From assembly GCF_008728835.1 (NCBI RefSeq), contig NZ_CP042582.1:1178001-1242000 (forward strand): 64,000 nt of DNA, given 5' to 3'. This document shows positions 7,656 to 27,876 of this stretch, in pieces; position 1 is the stretch's first letter; every line of letters begins with the position of its first letter. The stretch comes from Hypericibacter adhaerens (GTDB lineage Bacteria; Pseudomonadota; Alphaproteobacteria; Dongiales; Dongiaceae). Position numbers and translations under genes: made by a program. The notes under the pieces are model-generated. The model was not told where the DNA came from and searched no databases. It saw nothing but the letters and a program-made list of their open reading frames with translations.

Positions 7656-8924
7656 ATGAGAATTCGATCCAGATCGGTGATATCGGCGGCATTCGCCGCC
7701 GCCATGGCGGCGGCCTGCTACGCGCCGGCTCATGCGGCGGACACGCTCAAGATCGGTGTCGTCGCGACCCTCGAGGGGCCGCTGTCGACGCTGGGCGAGG
7801 ATGCGGTCCGCGGCGTCAAGACCGCGCTGAAGGCGGTCAACAACATGGCGGGCGGCCGCCAGATCGAGGTGATCTACGTTGCCTCCGACGCCACGCCGGA
7901 TTCGGCCGTGCGCGCCGTGCGCAAGCTGGTCGAAGAGGACAAGGTCGATCTCGTCATCGGGCCGGTCTCGGGCGACGAAGGCATTGCCATCAAGGACTAC
8001 GCGAAGACCCAGCCCAACATCACCTTCCTCAACGGCCAGTCGGGCGCCCAGGACACCACCTACCGGAATCCCGCGCCCAATTTCTTCCGCTTCACGGCCG
8101 ACGGCGCCCAGCAGATGGCGGGCCTCGGCAGCTACATCTATGACGTGAAGGGCTACAAGAAGATCGCCACGGTGGGCGACGACTACTCCTATCCCTACAC
8201 CCAGGAGTTCGGCCTGGTGGTCGAGTATTGCAGCGCCGGCGGCGAGGTGACCCAGCGCTTCTGGCCGCCGCTCGGCACCAAGGACTATTCCTCGATCATC
8301 ACGGCCCTGCCTGACGATGTGGACGCGATCTTCGTGGCGCTGGGCGGTGCCGATGCCGTGAACTTTGTCACGCAGTACGTGGAAGCAGGCGGCAAGGCCA
8401 AGATCGTCGGCGGCGCCATCATGGTCGACCAGACCGTGCTCTCGGCCAAGGGCGAGGCCAAGAATGCGCTGATCGGTACGGTCTCCGCGGGCGTCCAGGC
8501 CGACACCTGGGACGATCCGAAGTGGCAGGCCTATGTGAAGGCCTACCAGGACGCTTTCCCGCCGGACCAGCGCTTCCCGATCCCCTCGGCCAGCGCAACG
8601 ACTTACTATGACTCGATCATGGCCGCCTTCACCGTCCTGAACCAGATCAACGGCGATCTCTCCGACGGGCAGAAGAAGTTCCGCGATGGTCTCAAGGCAC
8701 TGACGCTGGACGCGCCCAACGGCAAGCTCCATCTCGACGACAACCGCCAGGGCATCGTCACCAACTTCGTCACCGAGGTGGTCGAAGGGCCAGACGGCAA
8801 CCTGGCCACCAAGGTCGTGAAGGTCGTCGAGAACGTGAACCAGCAACTCGGCATCGATCCGGCCGTGTTCGCCACCATCGGCGCGCCCTCGCGCGACGTA
8901 CCGGAGTGCAAGAAATACAAATGA
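7656..8924 (+). CDS. Liv-type ABC transporter substrate-binding protein
   Basis: 422 residues with a Sec signal peptide (MRIRSRSVISAAFAAAMAAACYAPAHA, cleaved before ADTLKIG). The mature part is a type I periplasmic-binding fold of the Leu/Ile/Val class: IGVVATLEGPLSTLGEDAVRGV, a conserved SDATPDSAVRAVRKLV segment, VIGPVSGDEGIAIKDYAKT, and FFRFTADGAQQMAGLG. It is close in layout to the second binding protein at 24519-25772, which shares GDEGIAxKDYAK, QDTT.R.PAPNFFRFT.DGAQ.MAGLG and the DLSDG...L..DNRQ.IV/VIDNFVTE ending. It is the first gene of the unusual operon reaching to 19935. The ligand is not predictable from sequence. Confidence 0.92.
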   Translation: MRIRSRSVISAAFAAAMAAACYAPAHAADTLKIGVVATLEGPLSTLGEDAVRGVKTALKAVNNMAGGRQIEVIYVASDATPDSAVRAVRKLVEEDKVDLVIGPVSGDEGIAIKDYAKTQPNITFLNGQSGAQDTTYRNPAPNFFRFTADGAQQMAGLGSYIYDVKGYKKIATVGDDYSYPYTQEFGLVVEYCSAGGEVTQRFWPPLGTKDYSSIITALPDDVDAIFVALGGADAVNFVTQYVEAGGKAKIVGGAIMVDQTVLSAKGEAKNALIGTVSAGVQADTWDDPKWQAYVKAYQDAFPPDQRFPIPSASATTYYDSIMAAFTVLNQINGDLSDGQKKFRDGLKALTLDAPNGKLHLDDNRQGIVTNFVTEVVEGPDGNLATKVVKVVENVNQQLGIDPAVFATIGAPSRDVPECKKYK

Positions 8925-8933
8925 CGATCGAGG

Positions 8934-8972
8934 CCGGTGCTCCGTGGGGACCCGCTCCCCGCGGAGCGCCGG
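8934..8972 (+). terminator. 17-bp stem-loop after the binding-protein gene
   Basis: Positions 8934-8950 and 8956-8972 pair over 17 bp with two G-U wobbles around a CCCGC loop, 10 bases after the stop codon. There is no T-run. As at 3037-3070, the position between a binding-protein gene and the rest of the operon suggests mRNA protection or partial termination. Confidence 0.65.
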
Positions 8973-9020
8973 CGCCTTCCTGATGGGTTCTCGCGCGGCG
9001 CCGGCCGTCGGGGTCACCGA

Positions 9021-10169
9021 ATGTCGCTGGTCTTCCAAGCCAACCGCATTCACTTCGGCCGCGGCGCCCTCGGCACTGCGCTCCATGCCGAAATCCGCCG
9101 GCACGATCTTCGCCGCTTCGTGATCCTCGCCGATCCGGCCGCCGCCGGCGGTCCGCTCGAGCGGCTGAAAGGCATCCTTCCCGCCGATATCGACGTGCTC
9201 CTGCTTTCCGACCAAGGCGGCGCAGCGGCGGAAGGCGCGCCCAGCGTTGCCGAGGTTCGAGAGCTGATCCGGCTCGAGGGTTGCGACACGCTGCTCGCCA
9301 TCGGGCATGAGGGCCTGATCAACCGAGCCAAGGTCGTGGCCCGCGGCACGCTGATCCCCGAGCTGCCCGCGCTGGCCGGCAAGGCCGCGCGGCCCGAATC
9401 CGCCGACCATGCGCCCTACCTGATCGCCGTTCCGGTCGATGCCGGTGCCATCGCGGCGCTGGGGCCGACCATCACGGTGCCGACCGACGATGGCGAGGTC
9501 TCGGCCATGTTCGATGCGGATTTCGTGCCGGATGCGTCGGTCTGCGATCCGGATTTCATCGCGGAGATGTCTTGCGCCCAGGGGATCGCCGTCGGCATGC
9601 ATATCGCGGCCGGGGGCGTCGAGGCCTATATGGCGCGCGGCGAGAATCCGCCGGCCGAAGCGCTGGCGCTCGCGGCGGTGCGGCGCAGCATCGTCTATCT
9701 GGAACAGGCGGCTGCGGGACATCCGCCGCCGGGCGGGACCCTGCTCATGGGGGCCGCGATCGAGGCGATGCTCGCGGCCTCGAAGGGCATGGGGGCCGCG
9801 CGCGCCATCGGCAACGCCATCGCCGGGCTCGTCAGCTGCGTGATCGAGCCCGGTGCCGTCAGCGCCGTGGTGCTGCCCGTCGTGCTCGATTTCAACGCCG
9901 GGGATCCGCACCCCGCCGGCATGCGCCTGACCGATCTGCTCTCGTTGCCCTTCGATATCAATCTATCGGTCTATTTCCGGCAGCTCGCACAACGCCTTGC
10001 CTTGCCGGATTCGCTGGCGGAACTCGGCGTCGACCGGCAGATGCTGCCCAGGCTGGCGCGCCGTGCCTTCCGGGATCCCAACACGGCGACCAACCCCGTC
10101 GCGGTCAGCGAGGGGGATTATGCGGCCATGCTGGTGCGGGCCGGCGGATTCGAGGAGCGAAGGGTCTAG
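9021..10169 (+). CDS. Iron-containing alcohol dehydrogenase-like protein with degenerate cofactor and metal sites
   Basis: 382 residues that align with group III (iron) alcohol dehydrogenases and maleylacetate reductases. The N-terminal IHFGRGALGTAL matches 'FG.G....L', and the C-terminal half keeps the family's helices. The functional motifs are altered. 'GGGS..D' reads GHEGLIN (95-101), 'GTGSE' reads AGAIA (141-145), the first metal-ligand helix 'GMDA..HAIEAY' reads GMHIAAGGVEAY (192-203), and the last-ligand segment 'HG' reads EPGAV (276-280). So most residues that bind NAD and metal appear lost. The start at 9021 fits the family N-terminus. It may be a non-catalytic, ligand-binding relative; an unusual active enzyme is possible. 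Confidence 0.75.
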   Translation: MSLVFQANRIHFGRGALGTALHAEIRRHDLRRFVILADPAAAGGPLERLKGILPADIDVLLLSDQGGAAAEGAPSVAEVRELIRLEGCDTLLAIGHEGLINRAKVVARGTLIPELPALAGKAARPESADHAPYLIAVPVDAGAIAALGPTITVPTDDGEVSAMFDADFVPDASVCDPDFIAEMSCAQGIAVGMHIAAGGVEAYMARGENPPAEALALAAVRRSIVYLEQAAAGHPPPGGTLLMGAAIEAMLAASKGMGAARAIGNAIAGLVSCVIEPGAVSAVVLPVVLDFNAGDPHPAGMRLTDLLSLPFDINLSVYFRQLAQRLALPDSLAELGVDRQMLPRLARRAFRDPNTATNPVAVSEGDYAAMLVRAGGFEERRV

Positions 10170-10383
10170 GGGGAGCGTGAGGAAGGCCTCGGGGGCCGTG
10201 GGCGCGGTTCTCCTCACCGGGGCTAGGGCGATACATGGAGTATTTTTCTTTTCCGAAGAGCCGGTCCATGGCTTGCCCGGCACCGGTTGTTCGGCATAGT
10301 TGTAGCCGCTGGTGGTCTCAAAATCCCCTCAACTTCAGAGGGTAAGCAATGCCCCGATCAAGAGGGCGCGGGAGGAACCAGGG

Positions 10384-11211
10384 ATGAGCAAGGCAGTCTC
10401 CATCATTCACGGCCCCTTCGGGCGGGTCGTGTTGTACCACATCGATCGGACCCTCATCGCCCATGCGCATCGGGAAGGGCATCTGCTCTTTCACGTGAGC
10501 GGGGCCAATTCGCGCGTCCGGATCAAGGACAAGGACCATATCGTCGGCCCGACGACCGGCGTGGCGGTCAATCCCTGGGAAGTCCATACCTACATCCCGG
10601 AAGTTCCGGCGGTCGGGCAGTATGCGCTGGTGCTCTATATCCGCGAGCCCTGGTTCACCGGCCACCGGCCCGGCGCCTATGACGCGTTGAATTTCGGCCG
10701 GCGCGAGTTCCGGATCACGCCCGAGATCGCGCTCCTGGTGAAGCATGTGGTGGGCAAGGTCTTGAGCGGCTCGGAGGACGAGACCATCGAGGCCATGCTC
10801 TACGAGCTCGCGGAAGCCTGCCGCTACAGCTCCCACCTGCATCTGCCGCAGCCCCAGCCGCTCGAGCTCAGGCTGGGGGTGAACGATTTCCGCGTCCGCA
10901 AATCGATCCGGCTCCTGTCCGACTGCCTCGATGCCGATATCGACATGAGCCAGGTGGCCTCGGAGGCGGGGCTTTCGCGGCCGCATTTCTTCAAGCTGTT
11001 CCATTCGCAGGTCGGGCTGCCGCCCAAGCTGTTCTGGAACACGATGCGGATCGAGCGGGCCTTCGTCGATCTGGTGCAGAGCGAGAAGAAGATCGCCGAT
11101 ATCGGCTTCGATCTGGGCTTCTCCTCGCAGAGCAGCTTCTCCCGCTTCTTCTGCCTCAATACCGGCATGGCGCCGACCGACTACCGCCGGGTCGGCCATC
11201 TGGTGCATTGA
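10384..11211 (+). CDS. AraC-family transcriptional regulator
   Basis: 275 residues. The N-terminal half (to about 150) looks like the cupin-type effector domain (HAHREGHLLFHVSGANSRVRIKDKDH, GVAVNPWEVHTYIP). The C-terminal 100 residues carry two helix-turn-helix units, with IDMSQVASEAGLSRPHFFKLFHSQVGLPPKLFWNTMRIERA and then KIADIGFDLGFSSQSSFSRFFCLNTGMAPTDYRR, the AraC signature. The ATG at 10384 follows GGAGG by 8 bases; the longer start at 10312 lacks such a site. It lies between the Fe-ADH-like gene and the Liv permeases and probably controls this cluster through the direct repeats at 7493-7523. Confidence 0.9.
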   Translation: MSKAVSIIHGPFGRVVLYHIDRTLIAHAHREGHLLFHVSGANSRVRIKDKDHIVGPTTGVAVNPWEVHTYIPEVPAVGQYALVLYIREPWFTGHRPGAYDALNFGRREFRITPEIALLVKHVVGKVLSGSEDETIEAMLYELAEACRYSSHLHLPQPQPLELRLGVNDFRVRKSIRLLSDCLDADIDMSQVASEAGLSRPHFFKLFHSQVGLPPKLFWNTMRIERAFVDLVQSEKKIADIGFDLGFSSQSSFSRFFCLNTGMAPTDYRRVGHLVH

Positions 11212-11338: not shown

Positions 11339-12367
11339 ATGAGCATGGCAGCGACATGGCAGCAATCGGCGCGGCGTCACCCCTACCGCCTCCTGCTGCT
11401 GCTCGTCCTGCTGCTGGCGCTCGCCTGGCTGTTCCTCGCCGTCTGGCCGCCGGGCTTCGAGGCCGTGTTCGGCAAGAAGAAGGTCTTCGTCAGCGCGGTG
11501 CTGAACGGCCTCACGCTGGGGAGTCTCTATTTCCTGGTCGCCTGCGGCTTCTCGTTGATCTTCGGGCTGATGAAGAACGTCAACCTGGCGCACGGTACGC
11601 TCTATCTATTCGGCGGCTATATCGGCTATGCGGTCCAGGACGCTACCGGTTCCTGGCTGCTCAGCATCTTCGCGGCCTTCGTCACGATGGCGGTGGCGGG
11701 TGCGCTGCTGCAGGTGACGGTGTTCCGCCGCCTCGAGGGCCAGGAGCTGCGGCAGGTGCTGATGACCATCGGCGTCGGGCTCTGCGTCGCCGATATCATG
11801 CTCTGGATCTGGGGCGGTGGCTTCTATCAGGTGTTGGCGCCCTCCTGGTCGAAGGGCGCCGTCGAGCTGCCCTTCGCCACCGCCGTGAACAGTTCGGGCG
11901 AGGTGATCTATCTCTCCTATTCCTTCATCCGACTGATCGTGCTGGCGGCCTCGGTGGCGCTCGGCATCGGGCTCTGGCTCCTGATCAATCGCACCAAGGT
12001 CGGGATGATGATCCGCGCCGGCGTCGATGACAGCACCATGCTGGCGGCGACCGGGGCTCGCGTGCAGATCCTCTTCATCGCCGTCTTCGCCTTCGGTGCC
12101 GGCCTCACCGGGATCGCCGGTGTCGTCGGCGGCACGTTGCAGTCGCTGGCGCCCGGTGAGGATGCGCGCTTCCTGCTGGCGTCGCTCGTGGTGGTGATCG
12201 TGGGCGGCATGGGCAGCATCACAGGCGCCGCCATCGGCGCGCTGCTGGTCGGTCTCGCCGAGCAACTTGGCTCGGTCTATGCCTCGACCTATGCGGTCCT
12301 CGTCACCTTCGTGATCATGGTCGCGGTGCTCGCCATCCGGCCGCAGGGAATCATGGGGCGGCGATGA
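11339..12367 (+). CDS. Branched-chain amino acid-type ABC permease, LivH class
   Basis: 342 residues with about eight membrane segments. It has an N-terminal hydrophobic helix (YRLLLLLVLLLALAWLFLAVW), LNGLTLGSLYFLVACGFSLIFGLMKNVNLAHGTLYLFGGYIGY, a LivH hallmark, and VVIVGGMGSITGAAIGALLVGLAEQL, the conserved ATPase-coupling region. An ATG at 11345 is an alternative start. The stop overlaps the LivM start by 4 bases. Confidence 0.92.
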   Translation: MSMAATWQQSARRHPYRLLLLLVLLLALAWLFLAVWPPGFEAVFGKKKVFVSAVLNGLTLGSLYFLVACGFSLIFGLMKNVNLAHGTLYLFGGYIGYAVQDATGSWLLSIFAAFVTMAVAGALLQVTVFRRLEGQELRQVLMTIGVGLCVADIMLWIWGGGFYQVLAPSWSKGAVELPFATAVNSSGEVIYLSYSFIRLIVLAASVALGIGLWLLINRTKVGMMIRAGVDDSTMLAATGARVQILFIAVFAFGAGLTGIAGVVGGTLQSLAPGEDARFLLASLVVVIVGGMGSITGAAIGALLVGLAEQLGSVYASTYAVLVTFVIMVAVLAIRPQGIMGRR

Positions 12368-13431
12368 GCGAGACCACGGCTCCCAACCCCATCGCGCTGC
12401 CTTCGCGCCGGACACGGCCCCAGCGGCTGGGACGGATCGAGCAGGGCATCGCCGGCATCCGCCCGGGTGCCTGGCTGACGGCCCTCGTCCTTCTGGTCAT
12501 GCCGGTCTTCGCCGACGACTTCTTCCAGTACCAGATCTTCGGCTGGACCTTCGTCTTCGGTACGATCGGCATGAGCTTCATGTTCCTCGCCGGCTATGGC
12601 GGGATGGTGTCGCTGGCACAGATGACCACGGCGGGCCTGTCGGGCTATCTGGTGGCGATCCTGGGCTCGAGCGCGTACGCCGATATCAGTCTCGGCTGGC
12701 CCTGGTGGGCCTTCGTGCCGGTCGCCATCCTGGCCGCCACCGTCTTCGGCACCCTCGTCGGCATCATTGCGATCCGCACGCAGGGCATCTACATGATCAT
12801 GATCACCCTCGCGATCGCGGCGGCGTTCTACTACTTCTGCAACCAGAATCTCGAGGTCTTCAACGGCCAGCGCGGGTTCAATTCGGTCCTGCCGCCGCAG
12901 GTGCTGGGGGTCGACTGGCACCGGCCCACGCCTTTCTACTACCTCTCGCTGGGCGTGGCGGCGGCGGCTTTCGGGCTCACCCGGTTCCTTTCGCGCTCGA
13001 CCTTCTGCCTCGCGGTCAAGGGCGTGCGCGACGATCCGCGGCGCATGGCGTCGCTGGGATTCAGCGTCCCGCTGCTGCGCATCCTGGCCTTCGCCTATGC
13101 CTCCTTCATCGCCGCCGTCGCCGGCATCCTGGTGGTCTGGTTCAACGGCCAGATCTCGCCGGGAACCGCATCGGTCAATGCCGCCATCGACATCCTGGTG
13201 ATCGCGGTCGTGGGCGGCCTCGGCCATCCGATCGGGCCCTATATCGGTGCCTTGGTCTTCATCCTGCTGCGCACCTTCGCGATCGACCTGTTCCATCTGC
13301 TGGGCTTCACCAGCCTGCGCTTCAACCTGCTGGTCGGGGTCGGCTTCCTCGCCATCGTCGCCTTCTCCCCGGACGGGGTCATCGGCCTGTGGCAGCGCTG
13401 GCGCGGCTCGATCCTGCGCCCGCGGCGTTGA
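12364..13431 (+). CDS. Branched-chain amino acid-type ABC permease, LivM class
   Basis: 355 residues overlapping LivH by ATGA. Typical LivM features are SFMFLAGYGGMVSLAQMTTAGLSGYLVAILG, GIIAIRTQGIYMIMITLAIAAAFYYF, VKGVRDDPRRMASLGFSVPLLRILAFAYASFIAAVAGIL, and ISPGTASVNAAIDILVIAVVGGLGHPIGPYIGA. It forms the heterodimeric channel with LivH. The ATPase gene follows after 20 bases. Confidence 0.92.
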   Translation: MSETTAPNPIALPSRRTRPQRLGRIEQGIAGIRPGAWLTALVLLVMPVFADDFFQYQIFGWTFVFGTIGMSFMFLAGYGGMVSLAQMTTAGLSGYLVAILGSSAYADISLGWPWWAFVPVAILAATVFGTLVGIIAIRTQGIYMIMITLAIAAAFYYFCNQNLEVFNGQRGFNSVLPPQVLGVDWHRPTPFYYLSLGVAAAAFGLTRFLSRSTFCLAVKGVRDDPRRMASLGFSVPLLRILAFAYASFIAAVAGILVVWFNGQISPGTASVNAAIDILVIAVVGGLGHPIGPYIGALVFILLRTFAIDLFHLLGFTSLRFNLLVGVGFLAIVAFSPDGVIGLWQRWRGSILRPRR

Positions 13432-13451
13432 GCGCCGGCGGATCGCGACCG

Positions 13452-14243
13452 ATGGACGCCGTCATGCAAGCCGAACCTGAAGCCTTCGCCCGGGGCCTCG
13501 AGAACGCGCTCGACCTGGAGATGGTGACGCGCATGTTCGGCGCGCTGGCGGCGCTCTCCAACGTCTCGCTCTCGGTCAGGCCCGGCGAGCGGCGCGCGGT
13601 GCTGGGGTCGAACGGCGCCGGCAAGACCACGCTCTTCAACTGCATCACCGGCGATTTCCTGCCGACGTCCGGCACCATCCGCTTTTTCGGCGAGGACGTG
13701 ACCGAGTTTCCGCCCCAGGAGCGCGTGCGGCGCGGCTTGCGGCGCACCTACCAGACCTCGCTCCTGTTCAAGAAGCTGACGGTGCGGGAGAACGTGCATC
13801 TGGCCTGCCGCGGCGTATCGCGCCAGCGCTTCTCGTTCTTCCCGTCGCGGCGCGACGACGTGCTGATCGCGGCGGCCGAGAAGCTGGTCGAGGCGGTACA
13901 TCTGACATCGGCCAAGGACAAGATCGTGGCCGATCTGAGCCATGGCCAGCAGCGCCAGCTCGAGATCGCGATGGCCCTGGCGGGGGCGCCGCGCCTCATC
14001 CTGTTCGACGAGCCCGCGGCCGGCCTTTCGCCGGCGGAACGCCAGGACCTGGTGGCGATCCTGACCTCGCTGCCGGCCCATATCGGCTTCATCATCATCG
14101 AGCACGACATGGATGTGGCGCTGCGCGTCGCCGAGAGCGTGACGGTGATGCATGACGGGCGGATCTTCAAGGAAGGCGCTCCGCGCGAGATCGAGGCGGA
14201 CGAGGAGGTCCAGGAGCTCTATCTGGGAGGCGAGGATGGCTGA
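13452..14243 (+). CDS. Branched-chain amino acid-type ABC ATPase, LivG class
   Basis: 263 residues. It has Walker A GSNGAGKTTLFNCITGDF, Q-loop TYQTSLLFKKLTVRENV, signature LSHGQQRQLEIAMAL, Walker B LILFDEPAAGLSPAERQDLV, and the H-loop in IIIEHDMDVAL. The C-terminus (EIEADEEVQELYLGG) is the standard LivG ending. The ATG at 13452 gives a normal LivG length. The last 8 bases overlap the start of the LivF fusion gene and contain its ribosome-binding site (GGGAGG). Confidence 0.92.
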   Translation: MDAVMQAEPEAFARGLENALDLEMVTRMFGALAALSNVSLSVRPGERRAVLGSNGAGKTTLFNCITGDFLPTSGTIRFFGEDVTEFPPQERVRRGLRRTYQTSLLFKKLTVRENVHLACRGVSRQRFSFFPSRRDDVLIAAAEKLVEAVHLTSAKDKIVADLSHGQQRQLEIAMALAGAPRLILFDEPAAGLSPAERQDLVAILTSLPAHIGFIIIEHDMDVALRVAESVTVMHDGRIFKEGAPREIEADEEVQELYLGGEDG

Positions 14244-16416
14244 CCGTCCGCTTCCCGCCGGCACCGCGGCGCCGATCCTTCAGGTCAGCGGCCTCAACGT
14301 CCATTACGGGCAGTCCCACGCGCTCCAGGGCGTCAATCTGAGCCTGCGCTCGGGCGTGCTGGCGGTGGTCGGCCGCAACGGCATGGGCAAGACCACGCTC
14401 TGCAAGGCGATCATGGGGATCGTCAAAACCACGAGCGGGTCGGTCCGGTTCGCCGGCGAGGAACTGATCGGCCAGTCCGCGGCGCAGATCGCGCGCAAGG
14501 GGATCGGCTATGTGCCGCAAGGCCGCCGGCTCTGGCCGAGCCTGACGGTCGACGAGCATCTGCGCCTGAGCAAGGTCGCGAAGCCGCAGGCCTGGTCGAT
14601 CGAGCGCATCTACGACACCTTCCCGCGGCTGGCCGAGCGCCGCCAACACGGCGGTGCGCAGCTTTCGGGCGGCGAGCAGCAGATGCTGGCGATCTCGCGC
14701 GCCCTGCTGCTGAACCCGCGCCTCCTGGTCATGGACGAGCCGACCGAGGGGCTGGCGCCCGTCATCGTCCAGCAGGTCCGCGACATGCTGATCGGGCTCG
14801 CCCGCCAGGGCGAGATCTCGGTGCTGCTGATCGAGCAGAATATCGGCATTGCCACCGCCGTGTCGGAACGCGTGGCCATCATGGTCAATGGCCGCATCAA
14901 CCGCATCGTCGATGCCAAGGCGCTGGCAGCCGACCGGCTGCTGCAGCAGCGCCTCCTGGGCGTGGGCCAGCATGCCCATGACGAGGATCTGGCGCCGGAG
15001 CCCGAGACCGAGCCGGCCGGGGCTCCGTTGGAGGCGGAGGCCGTTCCGCCGGCCACGGCTCTGCCGGAACGCCGGGATAAGAGACGCGCGGGCCCGGCGG
15101 CAAAGGCGGGACCGTCGATACCGGCGAGCGCCCCCGGCAGCGCCCGGCTGATGGAGCTGCGCCGTCCGGCGGCCGGATCGGAGAATGTCATTCTCGCCGG
15201 CGCGCTCGACCGGCACGAGGCGGCGTTGCGCCATCTGCGCGAGATCCTGCGCGACCAGGGAATCCAGGTCCGCCTCGCGGATCTCTCGGCGCGGGGGCGG
15301 GCCTTCGCCTGCGACGTGACGGCGAACCAGATTGCGATCCATCACCCACGAGGCTCGGCCGCCGTCTTCGTCGCCGACGAGGCCCAGGCCGCCGATGCCA
15401 TGGCCGAGGCCTTCCGCGTCTGGCTCCAAACCCAGCAGGGCATCGCCGGCGTGATCGTTGCCGGCGGCCATGCGGTGGCGGGGATCGCGACGGAGGGAAT
15501 GCGGGCGTTGCCCATCGGCCTGCCCAAGCTCCTGATCACCAGCGCGGCACCGGACAGCCTGGCCGACAGCGGTGCCACCGACGTCACGCTGCTGCATTCT
15601 GTGGCCCATCTCGACAGCGTCAATGCGGTGACCCGCGACGTTCTCGGCAACGGGGCCCGCGCCTTCGCCGGCATGGTCAAGGGACGCAAGGCCGGCGGTG
15701 CGGCGCGCCCCGAGGCCCGGCGCCCGCCGCCGGCGATCGGCCTGACCCTGACACCGACGACACGTGCCGGCGCCGATCGCGTCCGGCGGCAATTGGAGCC
15801 CGATCACGACAGCGTGCTGTTCGATGCGATGGGCGGTGGCGGGCGGGCGATGGCGCGGCTGGCCGAGGAGGGGCGGCTCGCCGGCCTGCTCGATATCGCC
15901 ACCGGCGATGTGGCACCGCTCGTTGCCGGCGGCGAGGAGCGCGAGATCGAGGATCGTTTCCGTTCCCTCGCGCGGTCGGGCCTGCCTTATGTCGGCAGTT
16001 GCGGCGGCCTCGATGCCGCCGCCTTCGGCGCGATCGATTCCGTACCGACGCGCTTCCGCCATCGCAATCTCCATCGCCTGGCGCCGGGCTTGAGCCTGAT
16101 GCGCCTCAATGCCGCCGACGGCGCCGTTCTCGGCTGCTGGATCGGCGAGCGCCTCAACCGGATGACGGGGCCGATGCTGTTCCTGCTGCCGGAAGGCGGG
16201 CTTTCCGCGCTCGATGCGCCGGGTCAGCCCTTCCACGATCCGGAGGCCGACCGCGCCCTGTTCGCGGCGATCGAGAGCACGGTCCACCCGGGATCGGATC
16301 GGCAGGTCCGGCGGCTGCCGTATCACATCAACGAGGCCGGCTTCGCCGCAGCAGCGGTCGAGGCGTTCACGGCGATCGAAGGAAGAAGGACCGCCACCAG
16401 GCGGGCGGTGGGCTAG
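14236..16416 (+). CDS. LivF-class ABC ATPase fused to a divergent Tm-1-like (UPF0261) domain
   Basis: 726 residues, about three times the length of LivF. Residues 1-245 are a complete LivF: Walker A GRNGMGKT (46-53), signature LSGGEQQM (143-150), Walker B LLVMDEP (163-169) and LLIEQN. A Pro/Ala/Glu-rich linker (about 246-312) leads to a Tm-1-like ATP-binding module. It is recognised by GVIVAGG...G.A...MRALPIGLPKLLITS (403-436), LDSVNAVTRDVLGNGARAFAGM (459-480), IGLTLTPTT...VR..LE..HDSVLFDAMGGGGRAM (501-539) and LLDIATGDVA (551-560). Family signatures as I remember them ('TLDTKG', 'GGSGGT', 'TMFGVTTP', 'HATGTGGRAME', 'LDITTTE') are recognisable but altered, so nucleotide binding may be changed. 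No TIM-barrel partner gene of this family is nearby. Confidence 0.85.
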   Translation: MADRPLPAGTAAPILQVSGLNVHYGQSHALQGVNLSLRSGVLAVVGRNGMGKTTLCKAIMGIVKTTSGSVRFAGEELIGQSAAQIARKGIGYVPQGRRLWPSLTVDEHLRLSKVAKPQAWSIERIYDTFPRLAERRQHGGAQLSGGEQQMLAISRALLLNPRLLVMDEPTEGLAPVIVQQVRDMLIGLARQGEISVLLIEQNIGIATAVSERVAIMVNGRINRIVDAKALAADRLLQQRLLGVGQHAHDEDLAPEPETEPAGAPLEAEAVPPATALPERRDKRRAGPAAKAGPSIPASAPGSARLMELRRPAAGSENVILAGALDRHEAALRHLREILRDQGIQVRLADLSARGRAFACDVTANQIAIHHPRGSAAVFVADEAQAADAMAEAFRVWLQTQQGIAGVIVAGGHAVAGIATEGMRALPIGLPKLLITSAAPDSLADSGATDVTLLHSVAHLDSVNAVTRDVLGNGARAFAGMVKGRKAGGAARPEARRPPPAIGLTLTPTTRAGADRVRRQLEPDHDSVLFDAMGGGGRAMARLAEEGRLAGLLDIATGDVAPLVAGGEEREIEDRFRSLARSGLPYVGSCGGLDAAAFGAIDSVPTRFRHRNLHRLAPGLSLMRLNAADGAVLGCWIGERLNRMTGPMLFLLPEGGLSALDAPGQPFHDPEADRALFAAIESTVHPGSDRQVRRLPYHINEAGFAAAAVEAFTAIEGRRTATRRAVG

Positions 16417-16522
16417 CGATGCTGGGGATCGCGGGCACCGCCGGGACATTCGCAGGCATCGTTCCCTTGCGGGCGCCGGGCTGCCGGTGCTGCGGGGGAG
16501 CGAAGCCGGTTCGGGAGGGAGC

Positions 16523-18283
16523 ATGAGTGGCGAGCTGATCGGTTCAATCGTCTCGTGGCTGATCGCCGCGATCGTGGTCGTCGCGATCGTGGTCTATCTG
16601 CTCAACTGGCTCTACCGGCGCTCCTCGAAGGAGGTCGCCTTCGTGCGCACCGGCTTCGGCGGCGAGCGGGTGGTGATCGACGGCGGCGCCTTCGTCATCC
16701 CGATCCTGCATCAGGTGACCGACGTCAACATGAACGTGCTGCAGCTCCGCGCGGCACGCGAGAACGAGGAGGCGCTCATCACCAAGGACCGGATGCGGGT
16801 CGATATCGAGGCCGATTTCTATGTCCGGGTCTCGTCCGACAAGCGCGCGGTGGCGGCCGCGGCCTCGACGCTGGGCCGGCGCACGCTCGAGCCCGAGCGG
16901 CTGAACGCGCTCCTCGACGGCAAGCTGGTCTCGGCGCTGCGCATCGCGGCCGCCGCCATGACCATGGAAGAGATGCACGAGAAGCGTGGCGACTATATCC
17001 AGCGCGTCCGCACCACCATGACCGACGCGCTGGCCCAGAACGGCCTCGAGCTCGAGACTGTGGCGATCATCGGGCTCGACCAGACCGAGCTCGGCTTCTT
17101 CAACCCGGCCAACCGGTTCGACGCCGAGGGCTTGACCAACCTGATCCAGGAGACCGAGGCGCGCCGCAAGCTGCGCAACGATATCGAGCAGGAGACCATG
17201 ATCCAGATCCGCCTGCGCAATCTCGAGGCCGAGAAGCGGGCGCTCGATATCGAGCAGGAGGCCGAGATGGCGCGGCTCGCGCAGCAGCGCGAAGTCGAGG
17301 TGCGCCGGGCCGAACAGCGCGCCGAGGTGGCGCGCGACCGCGCCGCCCAGGAGGCGCTCGCCCAGCAGGCCGAGATCGCGGCCCATGAAGAGACGGAGCG
17401 GGTCCGGATCGAACGCGACCTGTCCCTGACCCGCGCCCGGATCGCCAAGGAGCTGGAGTCCGAGCGCATCGATATCGAACGGTCCCGCAACCTCGACCAG
17501 TCGCGTATCGAGGCGCGGCTGACGACCGAGACGGCGCGATTGTCCTCGGAGCGCTCGCTCGACGAGGCCCGCATCGGCCGCGAGCTCGAGCTGCACCGGC
17601 TCGAGATCGGCCGCGAGCGCAGCGTCGAGGAGGCCGATATCGAGCGCCAGGCTGCGATCCATATGAAGTCGCTCGAGCGCTATGCCGCCCAGGTCAAGGC
17701 CGAGGCGGCGCATGCGCAAGCGGCGCAGGCGGAGGAAAACGTCTCGACCGTGCGCGAGATCGAATCCGTCAACCGCCGCCGGCAGGCGGAGGTCGTCATC
17801 GCCGAGAAGGAGGCCGAGCAGACGCGCATCCTGGCCGCGGCCGAGCAGTTCCGCTCGCAGATCGTGGCCGAGGCCCAGCGCCTGGTGAACGAGGCCGAGA
17901 ACGTGCTGAGCGACAACGCCCGCATTTCTCTCTACCGCAAGCAACTCCTCGAGCATGCCGAGGGCATCATCCGCGAGAGCGTGCGGCCGATGGAGAAGAT
18001 CGACGGCATCCGCATCGTGCAGTTCGACGGTCTCACGGGCAGCGGGCGCGGTGGCGGCGAGCCCAATGGCAGCCTGACCGACGAGGTGATCGATTCGGCC
18101 CTGCGCTACCGCGTCCAGGCGCCCATGCTCGACGGCATCCTCAAGGAGATCGGTTTCGAGGGCGGCAGCATCGCCAAGATGGGCGGGTTGATCCGCGAGG
18201 CGCGCGATCTCGAATCGATCCGCAAGGATGTCGAGCGGCGGGCTCCCTCCAAGGATGCCGGCGGCTCGTCGGAGGGCGCGTGA
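16523..18283 (+). CDS. Flotillin/SPFH-domain membrane scaffold protein (YqiK-like)
   Basis: 586 residues. One N-terminal membrane helix (LIGSIVSWLIAAIVVVAIVVYLLNWLY) is followed by an SPFH/PHB domain (about 35-230: EVAFVRTGFGGERVVIDGGAFVIPILHQV, LITKDRMRVDIEADFYVRV). A long, charged coiled coil (about 240-500) contains repeated 'R-IE-E--RS-D-SRI' units, and a flotillin-type C-terminus follows. Flotillins assemble into membrane microdomains that gather transporters and signalling proteins. The ATG at 16523 follows GGGAGGGA. It sits between the LivF fusion and the lactonase fusion on the same strand, which suggests it organises this transporter in the membrane. That role is inferred. Confidence 0.9.
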   Translation: MSGELIGSIVSWLIAAIVVVAIVVYLLNWLYRRSSKEVAFVRTGFGGERVVIDGGAFVIPILHQVTDVNMNVLQLRAARENEEALITKDRMRVDIEADFYVRVSSDKRAVAAAASTLGRRTLEPERLNALLDGKLVSALRIAAAAMTMEEMHEKRGDYIQRVRTTMTDALAQNGLELETVAIIGLDQTELGFFNPANRFDAEGLTNLIQETEARRKLRNDIEQETMIQIRLRNLEAEKRALDIEQEAEMARLAQQREVEVRRAEQRAEVARDRAAQEALAQQAEIAAHEETERVRIERDLSLTRARIAKELESERIDIERSRNLDQSRIEARLTTETARLSSERSLDEARIGRELELHRLEIGRERSVEEADIERQAAIHMKSLERYAAQVKAEAAHAQAAQAEENVSTVREIESVNRRRQAEVVIAEKEAEQTRILAAAEQFRSQIVAEAQRLVNEAENVLSDNARISLYRKQLLEHAEGIIRESVRPMEKIDGIRIVQFDGLTGSGRGGGEPNGSLTDEVIDSALRYRVQAPMLDGILKEIGFEGGSIAKMGGLIREARDLESIRKDVERRAPSKDAGGSSEGA

Positions 18284-18309: not shown

Positions 18310-19935
18310 ATGTCCTACCGCGTCATGGCGCCCGAGTTCGAGGCGCTGATCGACCGCAACGAGCCGGTCCGCAGCCTCGCCACCGGCTTCAAGTTCACCG
18401 AGGGGCCGATCTGGCACCCGACCGAGCATTACCTGCTGTTCTCGGACATGCCCGGCGATGTGCGCCGGCGCTGGGATGCCGATCGCGGTGTCCAGGAGGT
18501 GCGCCGGCCGGCCAACAAATGCAACGGCATGACCTACGATGCCGACCTCAACCTCATCGTCTGCGAGCACGCGACCTCCTCGCTGATCCGCGAGACGCCG
18601 GACGGCGGGCGCGAGGTGCTGGCCTCGCATTTCGAAGGGCAGGAGCTCAACAGCCCCAACGATGTCTGCGTGCGTTCCGACGGCTCGATCTATTTCAGCG
18701 ATCCCTGGTACGGCCGCATGCCGGTCTATGGCGTGGAGCGGCGGCGGGAGCTGGGCTGGCAAGGCGTGTTCCGGCTGCCGCCGGGTGGCGGGGGCCCCCA
18801 GCTCGTCGTGCCGCGCTACGACTTCGCCATGCCGAACGGGCTCTGCTTCTCGCCCGACGAACGGCTGCTCTATATCAACGATTCCGAGCGCGGGGTGATC
18901 CGGGTCTATGACGTGGCGCCGGACGGCACGCTGCGGCGCGGCCGGATCTTCGCCGACGGGCTCCTGTCGCGCCAGGAGCCGGGCATCCCCGACGGGATGA
19001 AATGCGACGAGCGCGGCAATATCTGGTGCACGGGCCCCGGCGGCATCTGGGTCTTCGCGCCCACCGGCACGTTGCTCGGCCGCATCGCGGTGCCAGAGGT
19101 GGTGGGCAACCTGCATTGGGGCGGCGCCGATTTCCGCACCCTGTTCCTCGCGGCCAGCACGTCCGTCTACACGGTGCGCACGCGCGTGGGCCCGCATCTC
19201 GAACCCTTCATGCGGGCACACCGGGCGCCGGCCGCGAAGCCTGTGGAGCCGCGGCCTGCCGCGCGTCCGACGGCGTCGATCGAAGGGCCGTTGCTCGATC
19301 CGTCGCGCGCGGTCCTCATCATCCAGGACCTGCAGAACGACGTGATCACCGAGGGCGGTGCCTTCGCCAGCTCCGGCGCGCCGGCCCATGCGGCCAGGCA
19401 GAACATCGTCGAGAATGTCCGGCGCCTGGCCCAGGCCTGCCGCTCGGCCGGCGTTCCGGTGATCCATGTCTGGTTCGTGGTCGAGCCCGGTGCGGCCGGT
19501 CTGACTCTCAATGCGCCCATCTTCCAGGGCATCCGGTCGAGCGCCGCTCTCGTGCGTGGGAGCTGGGGTGCCGCCCCGGCTGCCGGGCTCGAGCCCAAGC
19601 CCGGCGATTTCATCGTCGAGAAGATGCGCATGAGCGCCTGGGAGGGCACGCGGCTCGAGACCATCCTCAAATCCTTGAACCGCGACACCATCATCAACAC
19701 CGGCGCCTGGACCAACATGTCGGTCGAGCACACCGCCCGGGTCGGGGCCGACAAGGGTTATGTCGTGGTGATGCCGCAGGACGGCTGCTCGACGATCGAC
19801 GATTCCTGGCAGAAGGCCTCGATCGATTTCGCGATCCGCAACGTGGCCAAGGTCACGACCTGTGCCGCGGTGGAGGAGCTGCTGCGGACCGCCGAGCCGG
19901 AGCAGATGGCCGGCAGCCCCGCGATCCGGTCCTAG
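18310..19935 (+). CDS. SMP-30/gluconolactonase fused to an isochorismatase-like domain with catalytic Cys replaced by Ser
   Basis: 541 residues in two domains. Residues 1-300 form an SMP-30/gluconolactonase/LRE-like six-bladed propeller. The expected metal ligands are present: Glu31 (TEGPIW), Asn176 (MPNGL) and Asp228 (IPDGM), plus Asn117 (SPND). After a Pro/Ala linker (about 303-325), residues 326-530 resemble isochorismatase-family cysteine hydrolases. Asp340 (IIQDLQND) and Lys438 (VEKMRMSAW) are conserved. The nucleophile position, normally in 'G..TN.CVE.TAR', is Ser471 (TNMSVEHTAR), encoded by TCG at 19720-19722. The lactonase half should be active. The second half is either a binding domain or a serine variant. 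It ends the operon, and its TAG stop lies inside a repeat element. Confidence 0.85.
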   Translation: MSYRVMAPEFEALIDRNEPVRSLATGFKFTEGPIWHPTEHYLLFSDMPGDVRRRWDADRGVQEVRRPANKCNGMTYDADLNLIVCEHATSSLIRETPDGGREVLASHFEGQELNSPNDVCVRSDGSIYFSDPWYGRMPVYGVERRRELGWQGVFRLPPGGGGPQLVVPRYDFAMPNGLCFSPDERLLYINDSERGVIRVYDVAPDGTLRRGRIFADGLLSRQEPGIPDGMKCDERGNIWCTGPGGIWVFAPTGTLLGRIAVPEVVGNLHWGGADFRTLFLAASTSVYTVRTRVGPHLEPFMRAHRAPAAKPVEPRPAARPTASIEGPLLDPSRAVLIIQDLQNDVITEGGAFASSGAPAHAARQNIVENVRRLAQACRSAGVPVIHVWFVVEPGAAGLTLNAPIFQGIRSSAALVRGSWGAAPAAGLEPKPGDFIVEKMRMSAWEGTRLETILKSLNRDTIINTGAWTNMSVEHTARVGADKGYVVVMPQDGCSTIDDSWQKASIDFAIRNVAKVTTCAAVEELLRTAEPEQMAGSPAIRS

Positions 19936-23030: not shown

Positions 23031-23715
<685 letters not shown>

Positions 23716-23744
<29 letters not shown>

Positions 23745-24510
23745 GCTGCCGTCCCAGATACACCGCGCGAACGCTGGGATCCCTGGCCATCTCTTCCGAG
23801 GTTCCCTGCGTGACGATCCGACCGTTATGCAACAGGGTCACGCGACTCACGACGCTCATGGTGAATTCCATGTCGTGCTCGATCATGACCATGGTCAGCC
23901 CGGCATCGAGCTCGGCCAGCACCGTGCGCAGCCGCTTTCTTTCCGCGACGGACAGCCCTGCAGCCGGCTCGTCGAGAAGAAGCAGGCGGGGCGTTCCGGT
24001 GAGCGCGCAGGCGATCTCGAGCTGCCTCATCTCGCCATGCGAGAGCTCCCGCGCCAGATCCCCGGCGCGGGCCTCGAGCTGGACCCGTGCCAGCAGATCG
24101 TCGGCCTGCGATCTCGCCTTCTTCAGGGCTGCGGTCCCGAGCGAATGACGGGCCGGCGTGATGCCCACGGCCGACAAGGCGACGTTGTCCCTCACCGAGA
24201 GCTCATGGACGATGTTCGAGCTCTGGAACGTCCGCCGCATGCCCATGCGAACCCGCTCGAAAGGCCGTTTGCCGGCGAGATCCTGGCCTAAGAAGCGCAC
24301 CTCGCCGGCGCTCTGGCTGAGGGCACCGGCTGCGATCCCGAACAGGGTCGTCTTGCCGGCTCCGTTGGCGCCGATCAGGCCGTGCCGCTCGCCCTTTTGG
24401 ATCGCAAGGTCGATGGCCTCGAGTGCGGCCAGCGCACCGAAAGACTTGCCCACGCCCCGGAATTCCAGGGCGACAGGGTCGCCCTGGAAACCGGAAGCGG
24501 GGTTGGGCAT
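23716..24510 (-). CDS. Branched-chain amino acid-type ABC ATPase, LivG class (second system)
   Basis: 264 residues from ATG at 24510 (MPNPASGFQGD). Walker A is GANGAGKTTLFGIAAG, signature LSHGEMRQLEIACAL, Walker B LLLLDEPAAGLSVAERKRL, and the H-loop is in VMIEHDMEFTM. The ending (ARDPSVRAVYLG) is typical. The gap from the binding-protein gene is only 8 bases. The pair LivG/LivF powers the second Liv-type channel. Confidence 0.92.
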
Positions 24511-24518
24511 CGTTGCGC

Positions 24519-25772
24519 TCACGGGCAGGAGGGGTTGTCGCGGCTGACCTGGCCCAGCGCCAGGAACTTCTCGCGATCCATGCCCAGGGTCTGGTTCACG
24601 CCGACGACACGGCGGATGACCTTGTTGTAGAGCTTGCCGTCGCTGTCGGCCGCGATCTCCGTGACGAAATTGTCGATCACGGCCTGGCGGTTCTCGTCGA
24701 GATGGACCTCGCCGCCGGTCGGCGTCTTGAAGCTGAGCTTGCTCAGCACCGCGTGCAGCTGCTGATGGCCGTCGGAGAGATCGCCATTCACCGCCTGCAG
24801 GCCCCGCAGCAGCGCGGCCGTGTTGAGGTAGTAGGTATAGGCGGCGAGGGAAGGCGAGCCCAGCCCGTCGGGGAACTGCTTGCGATAAGCCGCGACATAG
24901 GCCTTCCAGTCGGGATCGTCGAGGCTGTCGGCAATGGCGCCCGCCGAGGGGGTGCCCAGGACATAGTCGCGGAAGCGGCCCTTGGACGAAAGGATCGTCT
25001 GGTCGGCGGTGAAGCTGCCGGCGATCATCGGCTTGTCGTTGCCGCCCTGGTGCATCTGCGTCAGGAAGTTGACGGCATCGGCACCCGCCAGGGCGACGTA
25101 GACGGCGTCTATATCCTGCGGGATCGCCGCGACGACCGAGCTGAAGTCCTTCTGGCCGATGGGAACCCACTGCTTGGTCACCACATGGCCGCCCAGCGCG
25201 CAGAACTCGTACATGAACCCGAAGACCTGCGTGTAGGGGAAGGAGTAGTCCTCGGCGACGATCGCCACCCGGCGATAGTTCTTTTCCTTGTAGGCATAGT
25301 CGCCGAGGCCCGCCATCCATTGCGCGCCGTCGCTGGTGAAGCGGAAGAAATTCGGCGCCGGATCCCGCAGCGTCGTGTCCTGCGCCGCCGATGTCCCGTT
25401 GACGAAAGTGATGGCCGGGTGGTTCTTGGCATAGTCCTTGACGGCGATGCCTTCGTCGCCCGACAAGGGCCCGACCAGCACGTCGACGCCGTCATTCTCG
25501 ACCAGCTTCCGCGCAGCCGCGATGGCCGAATCCGGCGATGCATCGGAGGAGGCCTTCAGGATGGTGATCTTGCGGCCCGCCACCTGGCCGCCGACCTCGG
25601 CGACCGCCAGCTCGACGCCGCGCACCGCGTCCTGACCCAGGACCGCGAAGGCACCGTCCAGCGTCGCCACGACGCCGATCTTGATGTCCGGCTCGTCCGC
25701 CCGGCCCGGGAGCGGCGCCGTGGCCAGCGCGACGGCCATCAGGCCGGCAATTCCTGCAATCTTCCAACGCAT
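24519..25772 (-). CDS. Liv-type ABC transporter substrate-binding protein (second system)
   Basis: About 417 residues from ATG 25772, which follows AGGAGG closely. Longer in-frame starts lack this. The signal peptide is MRWKIAGIAGLMAVALATAPLPGRA. The mature protein (DEPDIKIGVVATLDGAFAVLGQDAVRGVELA) belongs to the same Leu/Ile/Val class as 7656-8924 and shares many blocks with it. It lies between livM and livG, separated from livM by a 9-bp stem-loop. Its place inside an operon with an OYE-type oxidoreductase suggests the ligand is a precursor of that enzyme's substrate. Confidence 0.92.
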   Translation of the reverse strand: MRWKIAGIAGLMAVALATAPLPGRADEPDIKIGVVATLDGAFAVLGQDAVRGVELAVAEVGGQVAGRKITILKASSDASPDSAIAAARKLVENDGVDVLVGPLSGDEGIAVKDYAKNHPAITFVNGTSAAQDTTLRDPAPNFFRFTSDGAQWMAGLGDYAYKEKNYRRVAIVAEDYSFPYTQVFGFMYEFCALGGHVVTKQWVPIGQKDFSSVVAAIPQDIDAVYVALAGADAVNFLTQMHQGGNDKPMIAGSFTADQTILSSKGRFRDYVLGTPSAGAIADSLDDPDWKAYVAAYRKQFPDGLGSPSLAAYTYYLNTAALLRGLQAVNGDLSDGHQQLHAVLSKLSFKTPTGGEVHLDENRQAVIDNFVTEIAADSDGKLYNKVIRRVVGVNQTLGMDREKFLALGQVSRDNPSCP

Positions 25773-25839
25773 CGTTTCCTCCTGTTTGAACGCCATGGAC
25801 CGGGTTTGCTTTCTCCCGCGCATTCCCGCGCGCCCGATG

Positions 25840-25860
25840 GAGCTCCGGCGACCGGAGCTC
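25840..25860 (-). terminator. Stem-loop between livM and the binding-protein gene
   Basis: GAGCTCCGG-CGA-CCGGAGCTC is a perfect 9-bp stem with a 3-base loop touching the livM stop codon. No T-run follows on the minus strand. It could separate the abundance of permease and binding-protein messages by blocking exonucleases or causing partial termination. Confidence 0.5.
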
Positions 25861-26930
25861 TACCCCGCGATCTCCGATCCTTGATTCGCGGACGAGGCCG
25901 TCGCCGCGGCACCGGGCTGCGACGGAGAGCGATCACTGCTTGGGGATTTGCCTGCCGGGCCGAGCGGGAGGGCGTTTCGCAGCAGCGCAGAGCGTTTCGA
26001 GAGCCCGAGCAGGCCGTCCGGCGATGCGACCATGACGACGAGGAACACCCCGCCGATCAGCGAGTTGAATCGTTCCGCGCCGATGAGATCGATGGCGAAG
26101 TTCTCGAGCAGCAGATAGAGGACGGCGCCGAGCAGGGCGCCCGGCAGGCTTCCCATGCCGCCGAGCACGGCGATGACGAGGATCTGGATGATGCTCGACA
26201 CGTCGACGGCGCCGGGCGAGATGCGCCCGTGGAACCAGGCCAGCAGGATGCCGGCGCTGCCGGCCATGACGCCGGACAAAGCGAAGGCCAGGATCCGGAG
26301 ATAACGGATGTCGTAGCCGGCCGCCTCGACGCGGTCCGGGTTGGTCGCGAGGGCCGTGAGGGCGACGCCCAGGGGCGTGCGGCCCAACTGCCGGATGGCG
26401 CCGTAGGCCAGGACGGCCACCGTCGCGCAGAGCGCGTAGAACGGCACCGATCCGGCCAGGGACAGGCCCGCGATCTCCGGCCTGCGGATGCCGGCGATCC
26501 CGCGGAAGCCGCCGAAGATCGAGTAGTTCTGCCGGGCCAGGTAGAAGAACGTCACGCCGATGGCGAGCGTGATCATCAGGCAATAGATCCCGCGCGTGCG
26601 CGCCGCCAGCATGCCGATCAGGGTGGCGACGAGGACGGCCGCCAGAAGTGCCGCCGGAATGGCCGCCGCCAGGGACCAGTGCGGCCCGAGCCCGCTGCTG
26701 TTGGGGCCGAGATAGGCGAGCGCATAGGACGCGGCGCCGACGATCGCCACCTGGGCCAGGGAAACCTGGCCGCCGAACCGGATCAGGAAGGAGAGGCTGC
26801 CGGCGACGAGCGAGAGGCAGAGCGCCTGGGTCACGATCTGGTCGAGCCAGAAGCTGTTCGCGACCAGCGGAATGACGAGGAGGGCCGCGCCGCCGGCGAT
26901 CGCGCCGATCCAGGCCCGCGGCGGTTTCAT
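25860..26930 (-). CDS. Branched-chain amino acid-type ABC permease, LivM class (second system)
   Basis: 356 residues. It has LIPLVANSFWLDQIVTQALCLSLVAGSLSFLIRFGGQVSLAQVAIVGAASYALAYLG, LAARTRGIYCLMITLAIGVTFFYLA, and ISPGAVDVSSIIQILVIAVLGGMGSLPGALLGA, all LivM hallmarks. It starts 1 base after the LivH stop (TGACATG), so translation is probably coupled. Confidence 0.92.
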   Translation of the reverse strand: MKPPRAWIGAIAGGAALLVIPLVANSFWLDQIVTQALCLSLVAGSLSFLIRFGGQVSLAQVAIVGAASYALAYLGPNSSGLGPHWSLAAAIPAALLAAVLVATLIGMLAARTRGIYCLMITLAIGVTFFYLARQNYSIFGGFRGIAGIRRPEIAGLSLAGSVPFYALCATVAVLAYGAIRQLGRTPLGVALTALATNPDRVEAAGYDIRYLRILAFALSGVMAGSAGILLAWFHGRISPGAVDVSSIIQILVIAVLGGMGSLPGALLGAVLYLLLENFAIDLIGAERFNSLIGGVFLVVMVASPDGLLGLSKRSALLRNALPLGPAGKSPSSDRSPSQPGAAATASSANQGSEIAG

Positions 26931-26931
26931 G

Positions 26932-27831
26932 TCACGCCTTCACGCCGAACAGGCCTTCCGGCCGGAAGGCCAGGACGGCCGCCATCAGCCCGAAGGTGAG
27001 CATGACGCTGTAGGTCGGCAGGTAGAAGACGCCGAACTGCTCCGCCAGTCCGACCAGGATCGCGCCCAGCGCCGCGCCGGGAATGCTGCCCATGCCGCCG
27101 GCGATGACCACCACCAGCGACGTCAGCAGAAAATGCATGCCCTCGCCGGGCGAGATCGACAGGGCCGTGCCGAAGACCACGCCGGCCAGGCCGGCGAGCG
27201 CGCCCGCCAGGAACGCCGTCACCGGAAAGACCAGGCGGACCCGGACGCCCAGCGCGCGCAAGGTCTGCAGGTCGTCGACCCCGGCGCGGATCATCATGCC
27301 GAGGCGCGTCCGGTTCAGCAGCAGCCAGAGCAGGCCGCCGACGATGACCGCGAAGGCCAGCACGTAGAGCCGGAGCGTCGAGTAGCCGCCGGCGACGGGC
27401 AGCCGGACGACCCTGTCCAGCAGCGCCGGCGGCTCGATCTGATAGGTCTCGGCACCCCAGAAGGCCAGCATCAGGTCGGCCATGACGATGGCGCAGCCGA
27501 TCGACACCAGCGTCTGGCGCAGCATCTGGTTCTGGAAGCGCGCGAGCAGGAGTTGATAGAGCGCCAGCCCGACGGCGCCGGCGGCGATGGCACCGCCGAG
27601 GAGACCGAGGACCCAGGAGCCGGAGCTGTCCGAGATCGAGAAGCCGACATAGCCGCCCAGCAGGAACAGCGAGCCGTGCGCCATGTTGACGATCCGCATC
27701 AGCCCGAAGATCAGCGTCAGCCCGCTCGCGACGACGAAATAGAGCGCCGCCAGGGTGAGCGCGTTGAGCAAGACGATGGCGACCTGTTGCACGGCGAGAC
27801 CCACCCATCCCCGGGACGCCCAAGGCGTCAT
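26932..27831 (-). CDS. Branched-chain amino acid-type ABC permease, LivH class (second system)
   Basis: 299 residues with LLNALTLAALYFVVASGLTLIFGLMRIVNMAHGSLFLLGGYVGF and VVVIAGGMGSIPGAALGAILVGLAEQFG, the LivH signatures. It follows the OYE-type oxidoreductase gene by 45 bases on the same strand, making one operon with the four genes downstream. Confidence 0.92.
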   Translation of the reverse strand: MTPWASRGWVGLAVQQVAIVLLNALTLAALYFVVASGLTLIFGLMRIVNMAHGSLFLLGGYVGFSISDSSGSWVLGLLGGAIAAGAVGLALYQLLLARFQNQMLRQTLVSIGCAIVMADLMLAFWGAETYQIEPPALLDRVVRLPVAGGYSTLRLYVLAFAVIVGGLLWLLLNRTRLGMMIRAGVDDLQTLRALGVRVRLVFPVTAFLAGALAGLAGVVFGTALSISPGEGMHFLLTSLVVVIAGGMGSIPGAALGAILVGLAEQFGVFYLPTYSVMLTFGLMAAVLAFRPEGLFGVKA

Positions 27832-27876
27832 CGGCGAGGCCGCAATGGCCTCGCCGTCGTGACGATCCGTCGGTGA

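Follow-up and report, generated by a model that had tools for sequence, protein, structure and literature searches.

We asked what a Tm-1-like (UPF0261) module, carried in the same polypeptide as a LivF-type importer ATPase, could be doing there, and whether the copy found in the stretch of DNA analysed here (64 kb, hereafter the window) is still equipped to do it. UPF0261 proteins are widespread in bacteria and plants, and their function was obscure until very recently.

A LivF-type ATPase joined to a Tm-1-like module

The fusion is encoded by a single, unbroken frame on the plus strand (14236-16416; product, 726 aa), which begins 8 bases inside the 3′ end of the LivG gene. Its parts and its operon neighbours are listed below; neighbouring genes were identified by Pfam and neighbour comparison, and the evidence for each part of the fusion is given with it.

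7656..8924, plus strand: periplasmic substrate-binding protein (Peripla_BP_6) of the same operon
8937..10169, plus strand: divergent iron-ADH-like protein, a conserved operon neighbour
10312..11211, plus strand: AraC-family regulator, a conserved operon neighbour
11339..12367, plus strand: LivH-type permease
12364..13431, plus strand: LivM-type permease
13431..14243, plus strand: LivG-type ATPase
14236..14970, plus strand: LivF-type ABC ATPase half of the fusion, residues 1-245 (Pfam ABC_tran, motifs)
14971..15168, plus strand: linker of the fusion, residues 246-311, about 66 residues, rich in Pro, Ala and Glu (predicted disorder, motif absence)
15169..16413, plus strand: UPF0261/Tm-1-like module of the fusion, residues 312-726 (Pfam, predicted fold, alignments)
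16417..16522, no strand: 106-bp gap at the site of the TIM-barrel (PF09370) gene of most canonical operons, in which no remnant was found
16523..18283, plus strand: flotillin/SPFH protein, 586 aa

In the N-terminal half, Pfam ABC_tran matched residues 30-170 with 103 bits, and the Walker A (GRNGMGKTT, 46), signature (LSGGEQQ, 143), Walker B (LLVMDEP, 163) and switch (EQN, from 200) motifs were all present. Walker A, signature and Walker B, taken with the Liv gene order, identify a LivF-type ATPase. Unlike LivF and UrtE ATPases, with which it shares all motifs, the window protein is joined to a second module and scored below the NCBIfam equivalog cut-offs (UrtE, 223 of 285.8 bits; LivF, 162 of 441 bits), either of which would imply a known substrate. 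In the C-terminal half, the N domain (residues 317-485, 113.8 bits) and C domain (499-713, 197.5 bits) of UPF0261 both exceeded their Pfam cut-off of 27. With PF06792 and PF23189 above gathering cut-off and in the correct order, the module belongs to the UPF0261/Tm-1-like family; the NCBIfam PRK02399 models matched it below cut-off only. The window protein is thus a single polypeptide with the domain order of the LivF::UPF0261 fusion group, as we define this group here.

Structure prediction agreed with the Pfam assignment. AlphaFold2 gave residues 312-726 a Tm-1 fold with a mean pLDDT of 90.6, and Foldseek matched this model to tomato Tm-1 (3WRY/3WRX/3WRW, E down to 4.7e-34, TM up to 0.85) and also placed it on 9MPY, a bacterial UPF0261 structure. 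In the full-length model (pTM 0.52, in which the relative placement of the domains is not fixed), linker residues 244-309 had a pLDDT of 30-48 and were predicted to be disordered. The UPF0261 half would lie at the cytoplasmic face of the importer, as follows from LivF being a cytoplasmic ATPase. The fusion itself, a Tm-1-like module, a Pro/Ala linker and a cytoplasmic placement had all been proposed in the preliminary description of this locus, and each of them held.

Several features of the surrounding genes were seen along the way. In the iron-ADH-like protein (8937-10169), the usual Asp/His metal ligands are missing (GMHIAAGGVEAY, IEPGAV). We rejected the idea that this loss is peculiar to the window copy, as the corresponding site varies in other operon members as well; because of this variation, some iron-ADH-like proteins of the operon may be non-metal or inactive. 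Further downstream, one 541-aa frame (18310-19935) encodes an SMP-30/gluconolactonase domain together with a hydrolase domain of the isochorismatase type, and a second LIV-type ABC operon, with ATPases, a binding protein and two permeases, lies nearby on the minus strand (about 23031-27900).

An old and widespread fusion with a conserved operon

A scan of GTDB returned 448 stretches encoding relatives, and the full-length fusion was present in 80 of the 80 loci kept, most of them alphaproteobacterial and a few carrying a gammaproteobacterial label. Among the 385 sampled genomes of the class, 53 had a UPF0261 match, and by our reading 19 of these 53 had the fusion. Altogether, about 100 fused homologues from diverse genomes were found, with frames open throughout; in Yoonia and Variovorax plasmid records, the fusion is annotated 'ABC transporter permease'. 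A second fusion lies in the same genome as the window (G000:C1, about 4598529; loci L001 and L136), where it adjoins a PF09370 TIM barrel. Two ordinary genes merged by a sequencing or assembly error, the frameshift alternative raised earlier, are ruled out by the roughly 100 fused homologues, including this second copy, and we give such an artefact practically no credence. In a tree built from 115 UPF0261 modules, with the window copy left out, a single change split the 101 fused from the 14 standalone ones (SH-aLRT 95). The LivF::UPF0261 fusion is old and has a single origin. The survey therefore upheld the fusion and overturned the picture of a one-off, as the fusion is widespread and its canonical operon has a TIM barrel. 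No paper on the fusion was found in the open-access literature searched, which does not prove that none exists.

The canonical operon has the order SBP, iron-ADH, (aldehyde dehydrogenase), AraC, LivH, LivM, LivG, LivF::UPF0261, TIM barrel and flotillin, followed 3′ of flotillin by one or two SRPBCC genes, CoxM/CoxS/CoxL-type subunits, MoxR and CoxE. A second operon type, found in Mesorhizobium, Variovorax and the second copy of this genome, has FAA hydrolase, alpha/beta hydrolase and amidohydrolase genes instead. Within the CoxMSL-type molybdenum hydroxylase part, the CoxL-like subunit is split over two genes, and maturation-type MoxR and CoxE genes accompany it (L121, 15072-25650, and many of the loci L040-L117). 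Where a fused locus extended 3.5 kb or more past the fusion (74 loci), flotillin was always present 3′ of it, and in 58 of these loci a TIM barrel stood between the two. Flotillin is the sole downstream neighbour of the fusion that is never lost; the window flotillin has 586 aa, whereas the median in other operons is about 970 aa.

The window locus is without the SRPBCC genes and the molybdenum hydroxylase of the canonical operon. As previously described, it also has no adjoining TIM-barrel gene: none was found anywhere in the 64-kb window, and one PF09370 TIM barrel lies elsewhere in the same genome. One PF09370 gene was likewise found elsewhere in each of the seven TIM-less genomes searched via their loci, and in one further genome (G143). 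We considered treating TIM-less loci as a separate functional class but rejected this, as the conserved residues are retained in the 16 other TIM-less fused loci.

Freestanding UPF0261 genes usually adjoin ABC importers (of the sugar, BMP or LIV type) and a TIM barrel, and often SRPBCC; at one such locus, a binding-protein gene was the sole importer gene nearby. An unfused Thermomicrobium UPF0261 gene adjoins ABC transporter, TIM-barrel and PEP-synthase-like genes. In Terrarubrum (L126) and Bosea (L127), sugar-type ABC operons with a binding protein and permeases have no ATPase gene in our tables, which are incomplete, and the UPF0261 gene occupies the slot where an ATPase might be expected.

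Fold retained and conserved site largely lost in the window copy

The window module was compared with 108 near-invariant UPF0261 positions, defined as those that 95% or more of 89 TIM-positive members have in common. The module was changed at 41 of them, as against 0-2 in other TIM-less fused copies and a median of 1 (maximum 9) in the TIM-positive members themselves. Of the 62 positions common to bacterial members, 9MPY and tomato Tm-1, 20 were changed; the residues lost include, in window numbering, T323, T326, K327, E330, S412, D458, H530, E558, D561, H615, N616 and T624. The module does not retain the family-wide set of site residues by which UPF0261/Tm-1-like proteins are recognised. Alignment confirmed every altered stretch named in the preliminary description (321-329, 408-416, 503-511, 527-540 and 551-558) and widened the loss to 382-386, 435-445, 458-461, 594-596 and 615-628. 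The fraction of near-invariant positions changed was 38% in the UPF half, 5% in the LivF half and 4-25% in other operon genes.

The fused proteins also share a motif in their linkers, SNPxxP[TN]RW, whose P-x-R-W core could be recognised in 90 or more of 102 proteins (several linkers scored as negative are parse failures). In the fused proteins of loci L003-L119, it forms a short conserved stretch, SNPxxP[TN]RWS, inside an otherwise variable disordered linker, and it is probably a docking site. The window linker is without this motif and has PERR at 277-280.

Losses in the window module were not spread evenly over residue types. Polar conserved positions were lost in 25 of 45 cases vs 16 of 63 for non-polar ones (p = 0.0024), a preference that suggests that the scaffold has been retained longer than the site. 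The end branch of the window copy measured 3.64 changes per column vs a median of 0.21. GC at the three codon positions was 0.76, 0.54 and 0.85 in the window module and 0.65, 0.48 and 0.90 in the canonical copy, a shift that suggests relaxed constraint on the UPF half. In a neutral simulation, however, only 1-20% of runs, according to the mutational GC assumed, gave 415 stop-free codons at this divergence, and thus the frame may still be under some selection. No close orthologue of the window copy that could serve for dN/dS was found in the family, order, class or GTDB scans, and a genome of the same genus (G014) has the canonical copy and not the window copy. The two copies of our genome share domain order and their LivHM, SBP, LivG and flotillin neighbours, but only the canonical one adjoins a TIM barrel and keeps the conserved residues, and their UPF halves are 41% identical. 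Taken together, the fold of the window module is kept and its conserved site largely lost, and the window copy is a derived paralogue and outlier of the fusion group, degenerate or repurposed.

Possible roles of the canonical and window modules

The best structural match of the window module, the inhibitory domain of tomato Tm-1 (3WRV-3WRY; TM up to 0.85, about 32% identity), retains the family residues but belongs to a plant protein in which it is joined to a TIM barrel and not to an ABC ATPase (PMC5028733). The most informative relative is Saro_1862, a Novosphingobium UPF0261 protein solved with bound acetovanillone (PDB 9MPY). It aligns with the window module over the full length of both domains (24% identity by structure) and comes from a bacterial catabolic context with an aromatic ketone as ligand; unlike the window module, it is freestanding and retains the family-wide residues. 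A passage of PMC13101465 that cites J Biol Chem 301:110606 describes MarK, from the same species, as a single-component kinase that starts acetovanillone catabolism. Judging by species, ligand and date, MarK is probably Saro_1862. Two-component PEP-synthase-like kinases phosphorylate the same aromatic ketones, including acetovanillone (PMC12167813), and UPF0261 is reported to co-evolve with the TIM barrel (correlation 0.886; PMC5028733), which fits a shared pathway.

From 9MPY and MarK, the PEP-synthase-like neighbours in Thermomicrobium, the kinases of PMC12167813 and the TIM-barrel co-evolution, we infer that the canonical fusions are importer-kinases. We put at roughly 0.5 the probability of the overall reading, namely that canonical fusions couple import to substrate phosphorylation and that the window copy is a pseudokinase, decaying or repurposed. 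The ABC importer ATPase of a canonical fusion would bear a MarK-like substrate kinase on a flexible linker at the cytoplasmic face; the compound taken up, probably aromatic or hydroxylated in some other way, would be phosphorylated on entry and then handed to the TIM-barrel and molybdenum-hydroxylase enzymes that the operon encodes. The window copy has kept its importer half but lost the conserved kinase-type site, together with the linker motif and the partner enzymes next door. The residue loss argues against MarK-type kinase activity here, so that the module would most likely be a pseudokinase, either left over as a structural element or serving passively for binding or docking. Against the kinase reading as a whole, MarK is only distantly related (24% identity), and plant Tm-1 is the closer relative of the fused group.

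We also consider, at somewhat less than even odds, that the window locus reflects plain decay, in which a laterally acquired or duplicated operon is shedding its catabolic parts and the module is an inert tail of the ATPase. This would account for the missing TIM-barrel, SRPBCC and molybdenum-hydroxylase genes, for the signals of relaxed constraint (end branch and codon-position GC) and for the same-genus genome that has only the canonical copy; in our genome, the canonical copy elsewhere could cover the function. Decay fits less well with 415 codons free of stops and frameshifts, or with the preferential retention of hydrophobic, Gly and Pro scaffold positions.

For the canonical module, a role without kinase activity is conceivable, if rather unlikely: the module could be a regulator or scaffold that depends on ATP and connects the importer with the TIM barrel and with flotillin. 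The role of plant Tm-1 is virus inhibition, and there it acts as an ATP-bridged inhibitor of the viral helicase, a precedent for such regulation. The conserved linear motif of the linker suggests docking, and the UPF0261-TIM-barrel co-evolution (PMC5028733) would be expected as well. A regulator is harder to reconcile with the catabolic substrate bound in 9MPY, with the report in PMC13101465 that MarK is a kinase, and with the family-wide polar residues that canonical fused members retain.

Less probable still is a repurposed window module, a ligand-sensing or docking domain regulating the importer, whose fold is selected and whose catalytic residues have been released; this reading comes close to what the preliminary description had proposed. 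The unbroken frame, the high-confidence fold, the preferential loss of polar residues from a retained scaffold and the kept importer and flotillin genes favour it, but the genomes searched held no close orthologue and hence no sign of conserved new residues, the codon-position composition suggests relaxed constraint, and the linker motif is gone too. The proposal of the preliminary description that the module binds a nucleotide and gates transport did not fare well: 20 of the 62 family-wide positions are lost, and the best-studied bacterial relative suggests a substrate kinase. Nucleotide gating is weak for the window copy because residues, linker motif and partner genes have been lost while LivF is conserved.

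Returning to the importer-kinase reading, a more speculative extension, which we regard as doubtful, is that canonical fusions are group-translocating ABC importers with a kinase at the channel exit, spending ATP twice, once on transport and once on trapping; the window protein would then be a naturally kinase-dead variant in which transport still requires the domain. A concrete pathway is predicted by the conserved covalent link of an importer ATPase to UPF0261 in an operon that also holds a TIM barrel, a flotillin and a molybdenum hydroxylase, and with it a new way in which transport could be coupled to the initial step of catabolism. Because one copy has lost the site in nature, it offers a ready comparison for telling catalysis apart from any structural role of the module.
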